IMG/VR virus record: IMGVR_UViG_3300037827_000343
Coordinates: 1 to 48,559 of that record
DNA length: 48,559 nt
Direction: 5' to 3' (one strand)
From: a virus
The translations under genes and the position numbers were made by a program. Shown piece after piece: positions 2,410-46,251 of this stretch. The first letter of the stretch is position 1; each line of letters opens with the position of its first letter. The notes under the pieces are model-generated. The model made no database searches and was not told the origin of the DNA. It saw only the letters and a list, made by a program, of their open reading frames with translations.

Positions 2410-2446
2410 GTGTGGTCCCCAAGGACGAAAAGAAGGAGTCAGCGTG

Positions 2447-3433
2447 ATGCCGGCGACAACGATATCGTGGACCGACCATTCCGTGAATCCAATCCGCTGC
2501 CGGAACAAGAAGACGGGTGCCGTGGGTCACTACTGCCAGATGGTGAGTCCTGGCTGCGCCCACTGCTACGCTTCTAACTTCCAGAAGCGGTTTCACATGC
2601 CAGCGTTTCCTGGGTCCGGGAAGGCGTCGTCACTGCCGGATATGGGCAGTGATGGCACCGTGTCCGTCTCGGAGGATTTGGAAGTGTTCCTCGACAGGGA
2701 GCGGTTCATGGAAGTGCTGAGCCGCAAGAAGCCCACAAAGTGGTTCTGGGCCGACATGACCGATATATTCGCGTCCTGGGTGCCGGACGAATGGATTGAC
2801 GAGTGCTTCGCTGTCATGGCCTTGACGCCGCAGCACGTTCACCAAGTGCTGACGAAGCGGTCCGAGAGGATGCCTATTTGGGCTACCGAGGCTCCTCGTC
2901 GGGTCGCAGACATTATTCGCAACGGCGGAGCCAAATTCGCTGATGGATCGATGAATCTGATCCGTGCTTTCATCGCCGACGCTCGTAACCGAATAACGTG
3001 GTGGCCGCTTCCAAACGTCTGGCTCGGCGTCAGCGCCGAAGACCAGTTACGAGCAGACGAACGAATTCCGCATCTGCTCAGGACACCGGCGGCGGTGCGG
3101 TTTGTTAGCTTCGAGCCGCTGCTCGAAGAAATCAATACCGACAAGTTCTTCTGGCGGCCGATCACGGAGAAGGAAGCCGCCAATCTCAAGGAATGGGGCG
3201 TGGCGATTCCGAAGGTAATGCGGTCCGATTCTATTTACCAGGCCATCATCGGCGGCGAGTCCGGCCCCAACCATCGCACGGTGCCCTACTCCGCGATCCG
3301 TTCCCTCTGGCAGCAGTGCCGCGATGCCGGCGTGCCCGTGTTTGTGAAACAAGATGCCGGCCCGAAACCGGGAATGCAGGGCCGGATCGAGGATGAGGTT
3401 TGGGCATCGAAGGAATTCCCCAAACTGCGATAG
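2447..3433 (+). CDS. DUF5131 / phage Gp37-Gp68 family protein
   Basis: A 328-residue member of the DUF5131 (phage Gp37/Gp68) family. It opens with TISWTDHSVNPIRC, has the Cys cluster around GCAHCYAS (residues ~33-40), and keeps the family blocks FWADMTDIFASWVPDEWID, TPQHVHQVLTKRSERM, NVWLGVSAEDQ, RFVSFEPLLEEI and AIIGGESGPNHR, ending near PVFVKQDAG. The family resembles radical-SAM-like TIM barrels by its cysteines and is widespread in mobile elements; its reaction is unproven. ATG at 2447 follows AAGGAG (2433-2438). A ~60-residue insertion between the N-terminal block and the DMTDIF block is within family variation. Confidence 0.85.
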   Translation: MPATTISWTDHSVNPIRCRNKKTGAVGHYCQMVSPGCAHCYASNFQKRFHMPAFPGSGKASSLPDMGSDGTVSVSEDLEVFLDRERFMEVLSRKKPTKWFWADMTDIFASWVPDEWIDECFAVMALTPQHVHQVLTKRSERMPIWATEAPRRVADIIRNGGAKFADGSMNLIRAFIADARNRITWWPLPNVWLGVSAEDQLRADERIPHLLRTPAAVRFVSFEPLLEEINTDKFFWRPITEKEAANLKEWGVAIPKVMRSDSIYQAIIGGESGPNHRTVPYSAIRSLWQQCRDAGVPVFVKQDAGPKPGMQGRIEDEVWASKEFPKLR

Positions 3434-5726: not shown

Positions 5727-7436
5727 ATGACCGGAGAAAGCGATTCCAGTTTGATGGACACGATGTTCTTCAACGAGCATGATGCTTTCGCCGCTGCGTG
5801 GCTCCGCAATCTCTGGCCAACGGCAACCGTCGATGAAAGGTGCATCCGTGAAATACGAGCAGAGGACCTTGTTCGATTCGAGCGATGCCACTTCTTCGGA
5901 GGCATCGGCGGCTGGCAGTTCGCCCTTGATCTTGCCGGCTGGCCGGAGGGCCGTGAAGTCTGGACCGGCTCCTGTCCGTGCCAGCCATTCAGCGACGCCG
6001 GCAAGAAGAAAGGCGAAGCCGACGAACGGCACCTCTGGCCAGAGTTCTTTCGGCTCGTCAGCCTCTGCCGACCAGGAGTCATCTTCGGAGAACAAGTCGC
6101 GTCGGCGGAAGCAGTCGGCAGAAGAGAGCAAAGCCAAGCACCGCGCGTATGCAAAGGCTTATCGGCAAAAGCACAGAGCGAAAGAGTTGATACGTCATGC
6201 TCAGGAAAGATCGAAGAAGAAAGCGATATCTTTCGATTTGTGGAACCATCTGGAGGAGATTCAGGCGCGAATCGACATGGGAGTTTGCGAAGTGACCGGA
6301 CTGCCTCTGAATCTGGAGGGCGGCAGAACGTGGGACAGCCCGTCTCTGGATCGAATCGATCCGAAAAAGGAATATGTCTACAGCAACATCCGTGTTGTTT
6401 GCCATGGTGCGAACAGTGCAATGGGGGACTGGGGAGAAAACATAATGGTCAAGATGGCGATGGCCATTATGACCAAAAGACGCGAGAGGTCGAACGACTT
6501 ATCGAGGCGATTGGGGGAGCGGTTGCAAGAGAAGGTAAATGGCCTTGGCTCTCTAGAGTACAAGCTGACTTGGAGTCAATTGGCTACACCGTCGGGGCAT
6601 GTGTACTTCCGGCTTGCTGCGCGGGCGAGGAGGCCGAAGGATGGATTTTGCGTGGCGATCAGGCCGCTTGGGAGCGAACCATCGTCGGCGCTCCCCACAT
6701 CCGGCAACGGTTGTTCTGGGTGGCCAACGACAGCCGAGCAAAACGCAGACGGGGGACCGTACACCAAAGGCGACGGGAACGCTTATTTCACCCTGCAAAC
6801 GGCGGCGGAATTGACCGGCTGGGCCACGCCGACGGTCCACGACGGGGAGAAATCGGACAAGGGCCAGAAGAGCGACGAGGAGCAATACGGAACGAAGGGC
6901 AGGCCCCTGGGTCGCCAGGTCCTGGCGACCCAGCTTGGAGGATGGCCGACTCCTCAGACGTGCGAAGCTCCGAACATGAGCACGACGCGAGAGAACGGCT
7001 GGTCGTCCCCCAGGACGCCGAACGGGGGCCGGACGACGGGGACGCTGCGGGGCGACAACGGCAAGCCGCGCTCGAATCTGGAGACGGAAATTCTTGGAGC
7101 GACTTCCACGTCATCCCCTGCCGAGACGAGAAGGCCCGGCGCATCAGCGCTCAACCCGGCGATGGCCCGTTGGTTGCAGGGATTCCCCACAAGAACGCCG
7201 ATCCGCGATTGGGATACCTCGTCGCCAGGCTGGTCGAGTTGGGCCACGATCCAAAGACTGCTCGGCGAATTATACGCGAGGCCAGAGGGAATAGAGTCGG
7301 GCGGCTGAAAGGGTACGGGAACGCAATCGTGCCGCATTTGGCGGCGATGTTCGTGAGAGCGTTTTTGGAAACAGAGGTCGAGGCGAACCGGGTCGGCAGA
7401 CTGAGAGGCTACGGAAATGCAATTGTGCCGCAGTAG
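5727..7436 (+). CDS. dcm: C5 cytosine DNA methyltransferase with internal insertion
   Basis: A Dcm-type C5-cytosine methyltransferase in one of two long overlapping frames. Motif I is FFGGIGGW (residues 56-63), the catalytic Pro-Cys motif is GSCPCQPFS (81-89), the ENV motif appears as GEQV (121-124), the Q-x-R-x-R motif as VGAPHIRQRLFWVA, and motif X as GYGNAIVPHLAAMF near the end. Between GEQVAS and the next conserved block (WLSRVQADLESIGYTVGAC) there are ~140 residues of Ser/Gly-rich sequence with no family resemblance; in the other frame this stretch encodes an HNH-like nuclease. The last ~16 residues repeat motif X (NRVGRLRGYGNAIVP) a second time. The product may protect phage DNA from host restriction; whether it tolerates the insertion is unknown. 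Confidence 0.8.
   Translation: MTGESDSSLMDTMFFNEHDAFAAAWLRNLWPTATVDERCIREIRAEDLVRFERCHFFGGIGGWQFALDLAGWPEGREVWTGSCPCQPFSDAGKKKGEADERHLWPEFFRLVSLCRPGVIFGEQVASAEAVGRREQSQAPRVCKGLSAKAQSERVDTSCSGKIEEESDIFRFVEPSGGDSGANRHGSLRSDRTASESGGRQNVGQPVSGSNRSEKGICLQQHPCCLPWCEQCNGGLGRKHNGQDGDGHYDQKTREVERLIEAIGGAVAREGKWPWLSRVQADLESIGYTVGACVLPACCAGEEAEGWILRGDQAAWERTIVGAPHIRQRLFWVANDSRAKRRRGTVHQRRRERLFHPANGGGIDRLGHADGPRRGEIGQGPEERRGAIRNEGQAPGSPGPGDPAWRMADSSDVRSSEHEHDARERLVVPQDAERGPDDGDAAGRQRQAALESGDGNSWSDFHVIPCRDEKARRISAQPGDGPLVAGIPHKNADPRLGYLVARLVELGHDPKTARRIIREARGNRVGRLKGYGNAIVPHLAAMFVRAFLETEVEANRVGRLRGYGNAIVPQ
5848..7308 (+). CDS. overlapping-frame protein with HNH-like nuclease insertion
   Basis: A second long frame inside dcm, offset by one base. 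Its flanks match a family often seen overlapping phage C5 methyltransferases: KYEQRTLFDSSDATSSEAS at the start, GSLEYKLTWSQLATPSG, repeated GW-x-T-P blocks (SGWPTTAEQ, TGWATPTVHDG, GGWPTPQTCE) and NPAMARWLQGFP near the end. In the middle (~6115-6520) is an HNH-type homing-endonuclease-like domain: a basic helix, CEVTGLPL, SPSLDRIDPKKEYVYSNIRV and a C-terminal MGDWGENIMVKMAMAI. The start is uncertain: GTG 5848 has AAAGGTG upstream; ATG 5833 or 5779 are possible. Whether the flanks are a real protein or only conserved because dcm is conserved cannot be settled by eye; the HNH core is convincing. Confidence 0.6.
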   Translation: MKYEQRTLFDSSDATSSEASAAGSSPLILPAGRRAVKSGPAPVRASHSATPARRKAKPTNGTSGQSSFGSSASADQESSSENKSRRRKQSAEESKAKHRAYAKAYRQKHRAKELIRHAQERSKKKAISFDLWNHLEEIQARIDMGVCEVTGLPLNLEGGRTWDSPSLDRIDPKKEYVYSNIRVVCHGANSAMGDWGENIMVKMAMAIMTKRRERSNDLSRRLGERLQEKVNGLGSLEYKLTWSQLATPSGHVYFRLAARARRPKDGFCVAIRPLGSEPSSALPTSGNGCSGWPTTAEQNADGGPYTKGDGNAYFTLQTAAELTGWATPTVHDGEKSDKGQKSDEEQYGTKGRPLGRQVLATQLGGWPTPQTCEAPNMSTTRENGWSSPRTPNGGRTTGTLRGDNGKPRSNLETEILGATSTSSPAETRRPGASALNPAMARWLQGFPTRTPIRDWDTSSPGWSSWATIQRLLGELYARPEGIESGG

Positions 7437-45531: not shown

Positions 45532-45665
45532 ATGACAGCATTCGTGAACGTGTTCAACGCCGAAGTCAAACGATCTGATACTCCGAGTCCCGCCGGGGAT
45601 TTCCGCGCCAGGCGTACCAGGAGGGCATCGCCAAGCTGTTGGTGCCGTTGCTTCGAAAAATGTGA
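45532..45665 (+). pseudogene. possible frameshifted small gene
   Basis: The zero frame starts MTAFVNVFNAEVKRSDTPSP and loses coding character after AGDF. The -1 frame from the same place reads RQAYQEGIAKLLVPLLRKM to a stop at 45665. Together they would give a ~44-residue protein. No slippery heptamer is present, so an indel or decay is more likely than programmed shifting. The stretch TACTCCGAGTCCCGCC inside it also occurs at 44117-44132. Confidence 0.35.
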
Positions 45666-45804
45666 ATCTCCCTGCCGCCCTGCGTGTTCCCGGCGGGGGT
45701 GCAAGATCACGGGAACGGGGTTGGACCGATCCGATATTCGGTCCCGCTTTTGGGAGCTGGCGTACAGCTCCGCGAACCCTAAGACGCTTGTGAGGAGGAT
45801 TCCC

Positions 45805-46251
45805 ATGAACGAAATCACCTTGGACCATATCCGTCAAGCGGCGGAGTGGGCGAAGACCGCTCAGTACCAGCAAACCATCGGTGGCCTGACTCGCAACTAC
45901 AATCAGTCCGAGGGTTGGGACTGTGGTACTTCATGCTGCATATGGGGCGCGGCCAGCATCATTGCCGGCAACGGGCCGGCGACAACGGGGCCATCTGTGG
46001 ATTGGGCAAAGCAGAGCATCAATCATACTGTTGCGCGAGCGCTCATGAATTCTGAATCTAGCACGCCAGAGCAATTGCTCGAATCGCTAAATGCCGACCT
46101 GAGCCGGGCCAACCTGCGCGAGGCCGACCTGAGCGGGGCCAACCTGCGCGGGGCCAACCTGAGCTGGGCCAACCTGCGCGGGGCCGACCTGAGCGGGGCC
46201 AACCTGAGCGGGGCCGCGGTCATGATCGGCAACGTTGTGAGGGTGCTGTAA
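45805..46251 (+). CDS. pentapeptide-repeat protein, 148 aa
   Basis: The N-terminal ~95 residues (ITLDHIRQAAEWAKTAQYQQ, GWDCGTSCCIWGAASIIAGN) are helical with three Cys; the C-terminal ~45 residues are pentapeptide repeats A(D/N)LSx/Rx: ADLSRANLREADLSGANLRG and further units. Such repeats form right-handed quadrilateral beta-helices that can mimic DNA or act as scaffolds. The DNA under the repeats is nearly identical from unit to unit, so the array is young. GAGGAGG lies upstream of the ATG; the longer start at 45532 is rejected. Confidence 0.75.
   Translation: MNEITLDHIRQAAEWAKTAQYQQTIGGLTRNYNQSEGWDCGTSCCIWGAASIIAGNGPATTGPSVDWAKQSINHTVARALMNSESSTPEQLLESLNADLSRANLREADLSGANLRGANLSWANLRGADLSGANLSGAAVMIGNVVRVL

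Follow-up and report, generated by a model that had tools for sequence, protein, structure and literature searches.

Can a nuclease gene settle in the catalytic part of another gene and leave both overlapping reading frames open? This question is raised by a locus in a 48.6-kb viral record (IMG/VR record IMGVR_UViG_3300037827_000343), which was analysed over its whole length of 48,559 nt (hereafter the window) and which encodes a phage terminase. Frame 1 of the locus, termed alpha, gave profile matches to phrog_363 (E 3e-57) and PF00145 (E 6e-9). A second open reading frame, offset from alpha by one base, combines a match to the HNH endonuclease family phrog_3322 (residues 101-237, E 2e-25) with a match to the dcm-overlapping family phrog_1008 (residues 236-471, E 1e-13) in one ORF; the second-frame protein (phrog_1008) is called beta (Table 1). 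A first-pass annotation had described frame 1 as a C5-methyltransferase with all key motifs, the shifted frame as encoding an HNH nuclease and the flanks of that frame as matching a family that overlaps dcm, and these profile matches, together with the location of motifs IV, VI, VIII and X, bear out all three statements. The coordinates under which it had listed the finding mark a real locus, but they are those of frame 1, the insert itself lying within a much smaller stretch.

Table 1. Features of the overlapping methyltransferase and nuclease reading frames (positions are those of the 48,559-nt window).
Feature	Position	Strand	Remarks and basis
Alpha, C5-cytosine methyltransferase large subunit (putative), read through the insert	5727..7436	+	569 aa; phrog_363, PF00145
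Frame +1 ORF: beta N-part, HNH nuclease and beta C-part in one open frame	5779..7308	+	509 aa
Candidate beta start GTG, AAAGG upstream	5848..5850	+	alternatives ATG 5833 or 5779; sequence
Alpha motif IV, catalytic PCQP	5976..5987	+	invariant in alpha alignment
Stretch holding the 426-nt insert	6073..6527	+	alignments of both frames; exact borders uncertain
Alpha motif VI, GEQVA, insertion directly after	6087..6101	+	GEQV invariant in alpha alignment
HNH fold core	6172..6435	+	frame +1 residues 132-219, SLDRID...YVYSNIRVV...N..MGDWG; VIA-align
Alpha motif VIII, GAPHIRQR	6687..6710	+	alignment with uninserted relatives
Beta motif IX-like LNPAMARWLQGFP	7150..7188	+	near-invariant in beta alignment
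Alpha motif X RVGRLKGYGNAIVP, then second partial copy at C-terminus	7293..7436	+	sequence

Elsewhere in the window, imperfect repeats (11-letter type) form the start of a protein at 3-929, the C-terminal part of which is non-repetitive, and a protein at 45532-46251 ends in a pentapeptide-repeat tail (ADLSRANLREADLSGANL...) unlike its own N-terminal half. A RecE-like exonuclease (1105-1962) is encoded upstream of a conserved phage protein of unknown function (2444-3433; phrog_2045, E 3e-75).

The gene pair itself is widespread. The C-terminal part of beta was found at the identical +1 offset inside alpha in all 234 collected alpha loci. A start codon together with a GGAG-type ribosome site was present at the expected beta start in 157 of 207 non-identical loci (76%), compared with 28% in a control of resampled alpha codons; the weaker site of the window was excluded from the scoring. 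Given this enrichment, beta is very probably translated. Alpha contains motifs I, IV, VI, VIII and X and is predicted to adopt a C5-methyltransferase fold (Foldseek probability 1.0 to M.HhaI). In the beta alignment, the sequence LNPxxxRWLMGxP is near-invariant and shows a weak resemblance to motif IX of E. coli Dcm (RLTPRECARLMGF; hhalign E 0.097). We infer that beta is the motif IX subunit, which probably supplies the methyltransferase part missing from alpha. A search for sequence relatives of beta in the PDB gave none up to E 10, and VIA-align listed no methyltransferase for beta, a result that is uninformative because the model of beta is of low confidence over most of its length outside the HNH. 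Using a defence-system library, only generic C5-methyltransferase matches were obtained for alpha and none for beta-HNH.

A two-subunit C5-methyltransferase is known in M.EcoHK31I, the small subunit of which is reportedly encoded within the gene for the large one, in an alternative frame. Compared by description, alpha resembles the large subunit in having the catalytic motifs and motif X, and in both systems the two proteins are encoded in different, overlapping frames, here in 234 of 234 loci; the HNH insert, in contrast, is absent from M.EcoHK31I and present in the window. According to PMC3404938, the large subunit carries motifs I-VIII and X and the small subunit motif IX. By this analogy, the gene pair is a putative two-subunit C5-cytosine methyltransferase; the label 'dcm' of the first-pass annotation would name one subunit of an overlapping pair and not an E. 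coli-type Dcm. Alpha of the window ends in two copies of motif X (7285-7436; NRVGRLKGYGNAIVPH ... NRVGRLRGYGNAIVPQ), the second just ahead of the start of the next gene, which looks like a recombination scar or a partial duplication.

Both frames were aligned with uninserted relatives (Salmonella phage epsilon15, Aeromonas phage AeroV_348, E. coli phage K1ind2 and Klebsiella phage SBP). Frame 1 of the window showed a gain of 142 codons (426 nt) right after GEQVA of motif VI, and frame 2 a gain of 142 codons flanked by SASAD and DLSRRLGERL, in agreement with the ~420-bp, multiple-of-three insert after GEQVAS in the first-pass annotation. That annotation had also proposed insert-free phages for finding the exact borders; the comparison places the insert within the listed stretch but leaves its edges uncertain, since the left one is kept by alpha (GEQVA to 6101) and the right one by beta (DLSRRL from 6496). 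A target-site duplication was considered as well, GGAVA to the right of the window insert resembling a second GEQVA, and was dismissed, as edge scoring in the loci with both anchors gave no alpha-like signal on the right. A further in-frame extra of ~63 nt in alpha (approximately 6624-6686), between the DLESIGY block and motif VIII, is absent from alpha of the same four phages.

AlphaFold predicted a confident methyltransferase fold for alpha, with insert residues 135-242 disordered. The frame +1 model reached a pLDDT of about 87-98 over residues 111-280, and its confident domain (106-283) comprises the HNH and the start of the beta C-part. Using VIA-align, the HNH fold was matched to PacI (Z 7.8, 87 residues, rmsd 2.8) and to the HNH nickase of G. 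metallireducens (Z 7.0); a PDB sequence search with the HNH region returned one weak unrelated match only.

Introns and inteins typically insert at conserved catalytic motifs, and the insertion at such a motif would fit an HNH carried by a group I intron or an intein that is spliced out, with the open alpha frame being incidental. For a group I intron, there was no Rfam match up to E 1 and a ribozyme core was not found; for an intein, Pfam gave no Hint/intein domain, frame 1 matching only the C5 methyltransferase and, weakly, DUF3173. In addition, the HNH nearly fills the 426 nt, and the strict avoidance of alpha stops described below would be needless under RNA splicing. We therefore give a spliced element almost no credence.

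Carriers of the insert were found by scanning viral and bacterial contigs, followed by a frame-by-frame check. Counting the window, 23 distinct contigs (22 viral and one bacterial MAG, Desulfovibrio) have an HNH of this family at the motif VI site in an identical relative frame, so that at least 22 further sequences of viral or prophage origin share this type of insert with the window. A search of 50,697 annotated phage records gave no single place spanning the HNH-beta fusion, and a single-protein search of IMG/VR for close relatives gave no match. HNH and beta are continuous in 21 of the 23 same-site inserts. In the two exceptions (L087 and L088), the HNH is flanked or followed by stops in frame 2, and a Met immediately downstream opens the C-terminal part of beta anew, which suggests that the functional beta starts at the LxxRL helix. 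DQ replaces the conserved DR of the HNH motif in L013, L187 and L192, suggesting that some HNH copies may be dead, as would be expected of copies that decay in the course of a homing cycle. Further HNH insertions were found at a second site, after alpha motif VIII, with alpha open in L193 and L194 and broken in L089, so that read-through is not universal. A second copy of the motif VIII segment APHIRQRL is seen in L193 and L089. Finally, related free-standing HNH genes are located just downstream of an uninserted dcm in L005, L091, L096, L196 and L197.

Across the 23 inserts, not a single alpha-frame stop was found in 2,594 HNH codons, whereas the third frame contained 161. From the HNH amino acids, about 4-13 alpha-frame stops are expected per insert, and zero were observed in every one. 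For the window insert, about 6-7 frame-1 stops are expected, and the probability of having none given the HNH amino acids is 0.0019 when the codon usage of the window is applied and 5e-5 when that of the insert itself is applied. T-ending HNH codons, which create an alpha stop before AA, AG or GA, occurred in 0 of 688 cases before these dinucleotides, compared with 402 of 1,770 (23%) before others. A stop-free equivalent frame, in contrast, was seen in just one of ten free-standing HNH genes of the family with a GC content of at least 0.45 (that gene has a GC content of 0.70), the other nine containing stops. The stop-free result is no discovery artefact, because the locus scan used HNH-frame peptides and ignored the alpha frame. 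The inserts share common ancestry and are therefore not 23 independent draws; most are only about 65-80% alike where alignable.

Where related inserts differ, it is mainly in the third position of the HNH codons (e.g., 32/20/66 differences at positions 1/2/3), which corresponds to the first position in alpha. The HNH protein is conserved, and the main demand on alpha is an open frame. A constraint on the amino acids that the insert encodes in the alpha frame was likewise considered and is not claimed: excess identity over reshuffled codons was clear only in close pairs, where shared ancestry explains it. Taken together, the data support that the methyltransferase frame is held open by selection across the nuclease gene, and one DNA stretch appears to be kept open to code two proteins. 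The first-pass annotation had called a stop-free frame 1 unlikely by chance and had proposed selection on dual coding, and both ideas stand up to these counts. It had named homologues with stops in one frame as a possible refutation; the methyltransferase frame has none in any of the 23 inserts, and the frame-2 stops of L087 and L088 occur at the nuclease edges only.

Alternatively, alpha could be dead in the carriers, with an open frame left by chance or base composition. The location of the insert loop next to the active site and the at most weak conservation of its alpha-frame amino acids would be in agreement with this idea, but it has to account for the complete lack of stops across 23 divergent inserts and for the retention of motifs IV, VI, VIII and X up- and downstream of the insert. 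We consider a dead alpha quite unlikely.

An alpha tree with modest support was built without the insert and included 18 carriers. These gave 14 state changes compared with a shuffled mean of 17.1, which means that they are somewhat clustered, yet a single carrier clade was rejected (p-AU 0.0215). HNH and alpha distances were uncorrelated (r 0.11, P 0.11). Scattered carriers and uncorrelated distances are as expected of a mobile element, with the caveat that repeated loss could explain part of the scatter. Homing, including cleavage by the HNH, would fit the scatter, the distances and the free-standing HNH genes adjacent to dcm.

The continuity of HNH and beta invites another explanation, in which the fusion is a recruited working domain and not a mobile element: the nuclease would be tethered to the methyltransferase and, much as in a fused restriction-modification enzyme, rely on it for target recognition. 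Most same-site inserts are indeed fused without a stop, the HNH helix runs into the hairpin of the beta C-part within the one confident domain, and the HNH amino acids are conserved. This explanation is opposed by the stops between HNH and beta and the restart Met in L087 and L088, by the scatter of the carriers and the loss of the DR pair in some copies, and by the rarity of the insert among alpha/beta loci, with none in annotated phages; we regard it as improbable. Similarly improbable, in our opinion, is that beta-HNH is a functional enzyme in which the recognition subunit of the methyltransferase steers the nuclease, a mobile element having been made into a self-protecting cut-or-methylate system with both readings in one DNA.

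The explanation that we favour, and hold to be probable, is that of an HNH element of the homing type that lacks a splicing device, with alpha being read through it as a disordered loop and the beta frame supplying translation of the nuclease. Architecture, approximate borders, frame conservation, recurrence and scatter of the element were obtained by computation. We propose that both products are translated, that the loop is tolerated and that the HNH cleaves and homes. In a two-subunit C5-cytosine methyltransferase with beta coded one base out of frame within alpha, an HNH homing-type endonuclease would have inserted into the DNA for catalytic motif VI, bringing no splicing device. As the insert is a multiple of three and avoids all codon junctions that give alpha stops, alpha would be translated straight through, with a disordered loop of ~142 residues between motif VI and the remaining catalytic domain and with motifs VIII and X still reached. 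As the nuclease lies in the beta frame, it would be made with the existing translation of beta, as a beta-HNH-beta fusion in the majority of carriers, the window among them, and as a cistron of its own in two. The element would probably spread by HNH cleavage of uninserted alleles at the conserved motif VI site, with repair copying it in. An objection to this explanation is that alpha might lose its activity with 142 additional residues looped out next to the active site.

These findings indicate that a mobile nuclease can persist unspliced in the catalytic part of a gene if it is written for read-through by the host gene, and a pre-existing overlapping frame is an obvious answer to how a hidden nuclease is translated. 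The 23 divergent examples make it possible to test what dual coding costs, whether the loop is tolerated and how the homing cycle proceeds, including how the HNH motif decays. They are also a warning to annotators, who often omit one of the two frames or give it a wrong name.

The window HNH belongs to the same family as the phrog_3322 HNH endonucleases of phages, which sometimes lie beside the same dcm type, e.g., in Klebsiella phage SBP. The free-standing genes of this family are located outside dcm and have stops in the equivalent frame, whereas the window HNH is inside. Hidden HNH nucleases have been described before: in the ShiLan element of Mycobacterium phage methylases and in Pacc40, a second frame of the methylase gene encodes an HNH while the methylase frame itself stays open (Arsenault, Gosselin and Gogarten, 2025, PMC11855218; also PMC9957025), and a further case, Applejack, was announced (PMC12613952). 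The 2025 ShiLan paper leaves translation of the hidden nucleases open, and we found no statistical test of stop avoidance in it (PMC11855218). The window insert resembles ShiLan in the absence of host-frame stops across the insert, an HNH in another frame, no intron or intein and a patchy distribution, and also in an insert predicted to be a tolerated loop. In contrast, the host gene product in ShiLan, gp65, is an N6/N4 methylase (PF01555) and that in the window a C5 enzyme. The ShiLan HNH starts at a GTG and ends at a TAA of its own and lies between Cys pairs, whereas the window HNH is without Cys pairs and lies inside a pre-existing overlapping ORF, continuous with beta. Because host gene and HNH start and stop differ, the two work alike but are not the same element. 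Thus, the general principle is already published, and what is new is a variant that recurs and is founded on a gene pair with a pre-existing overlap; it differs from ShiLan in the host enzyme, in the shared pre-existing ORF as translation route and in its recurrence.
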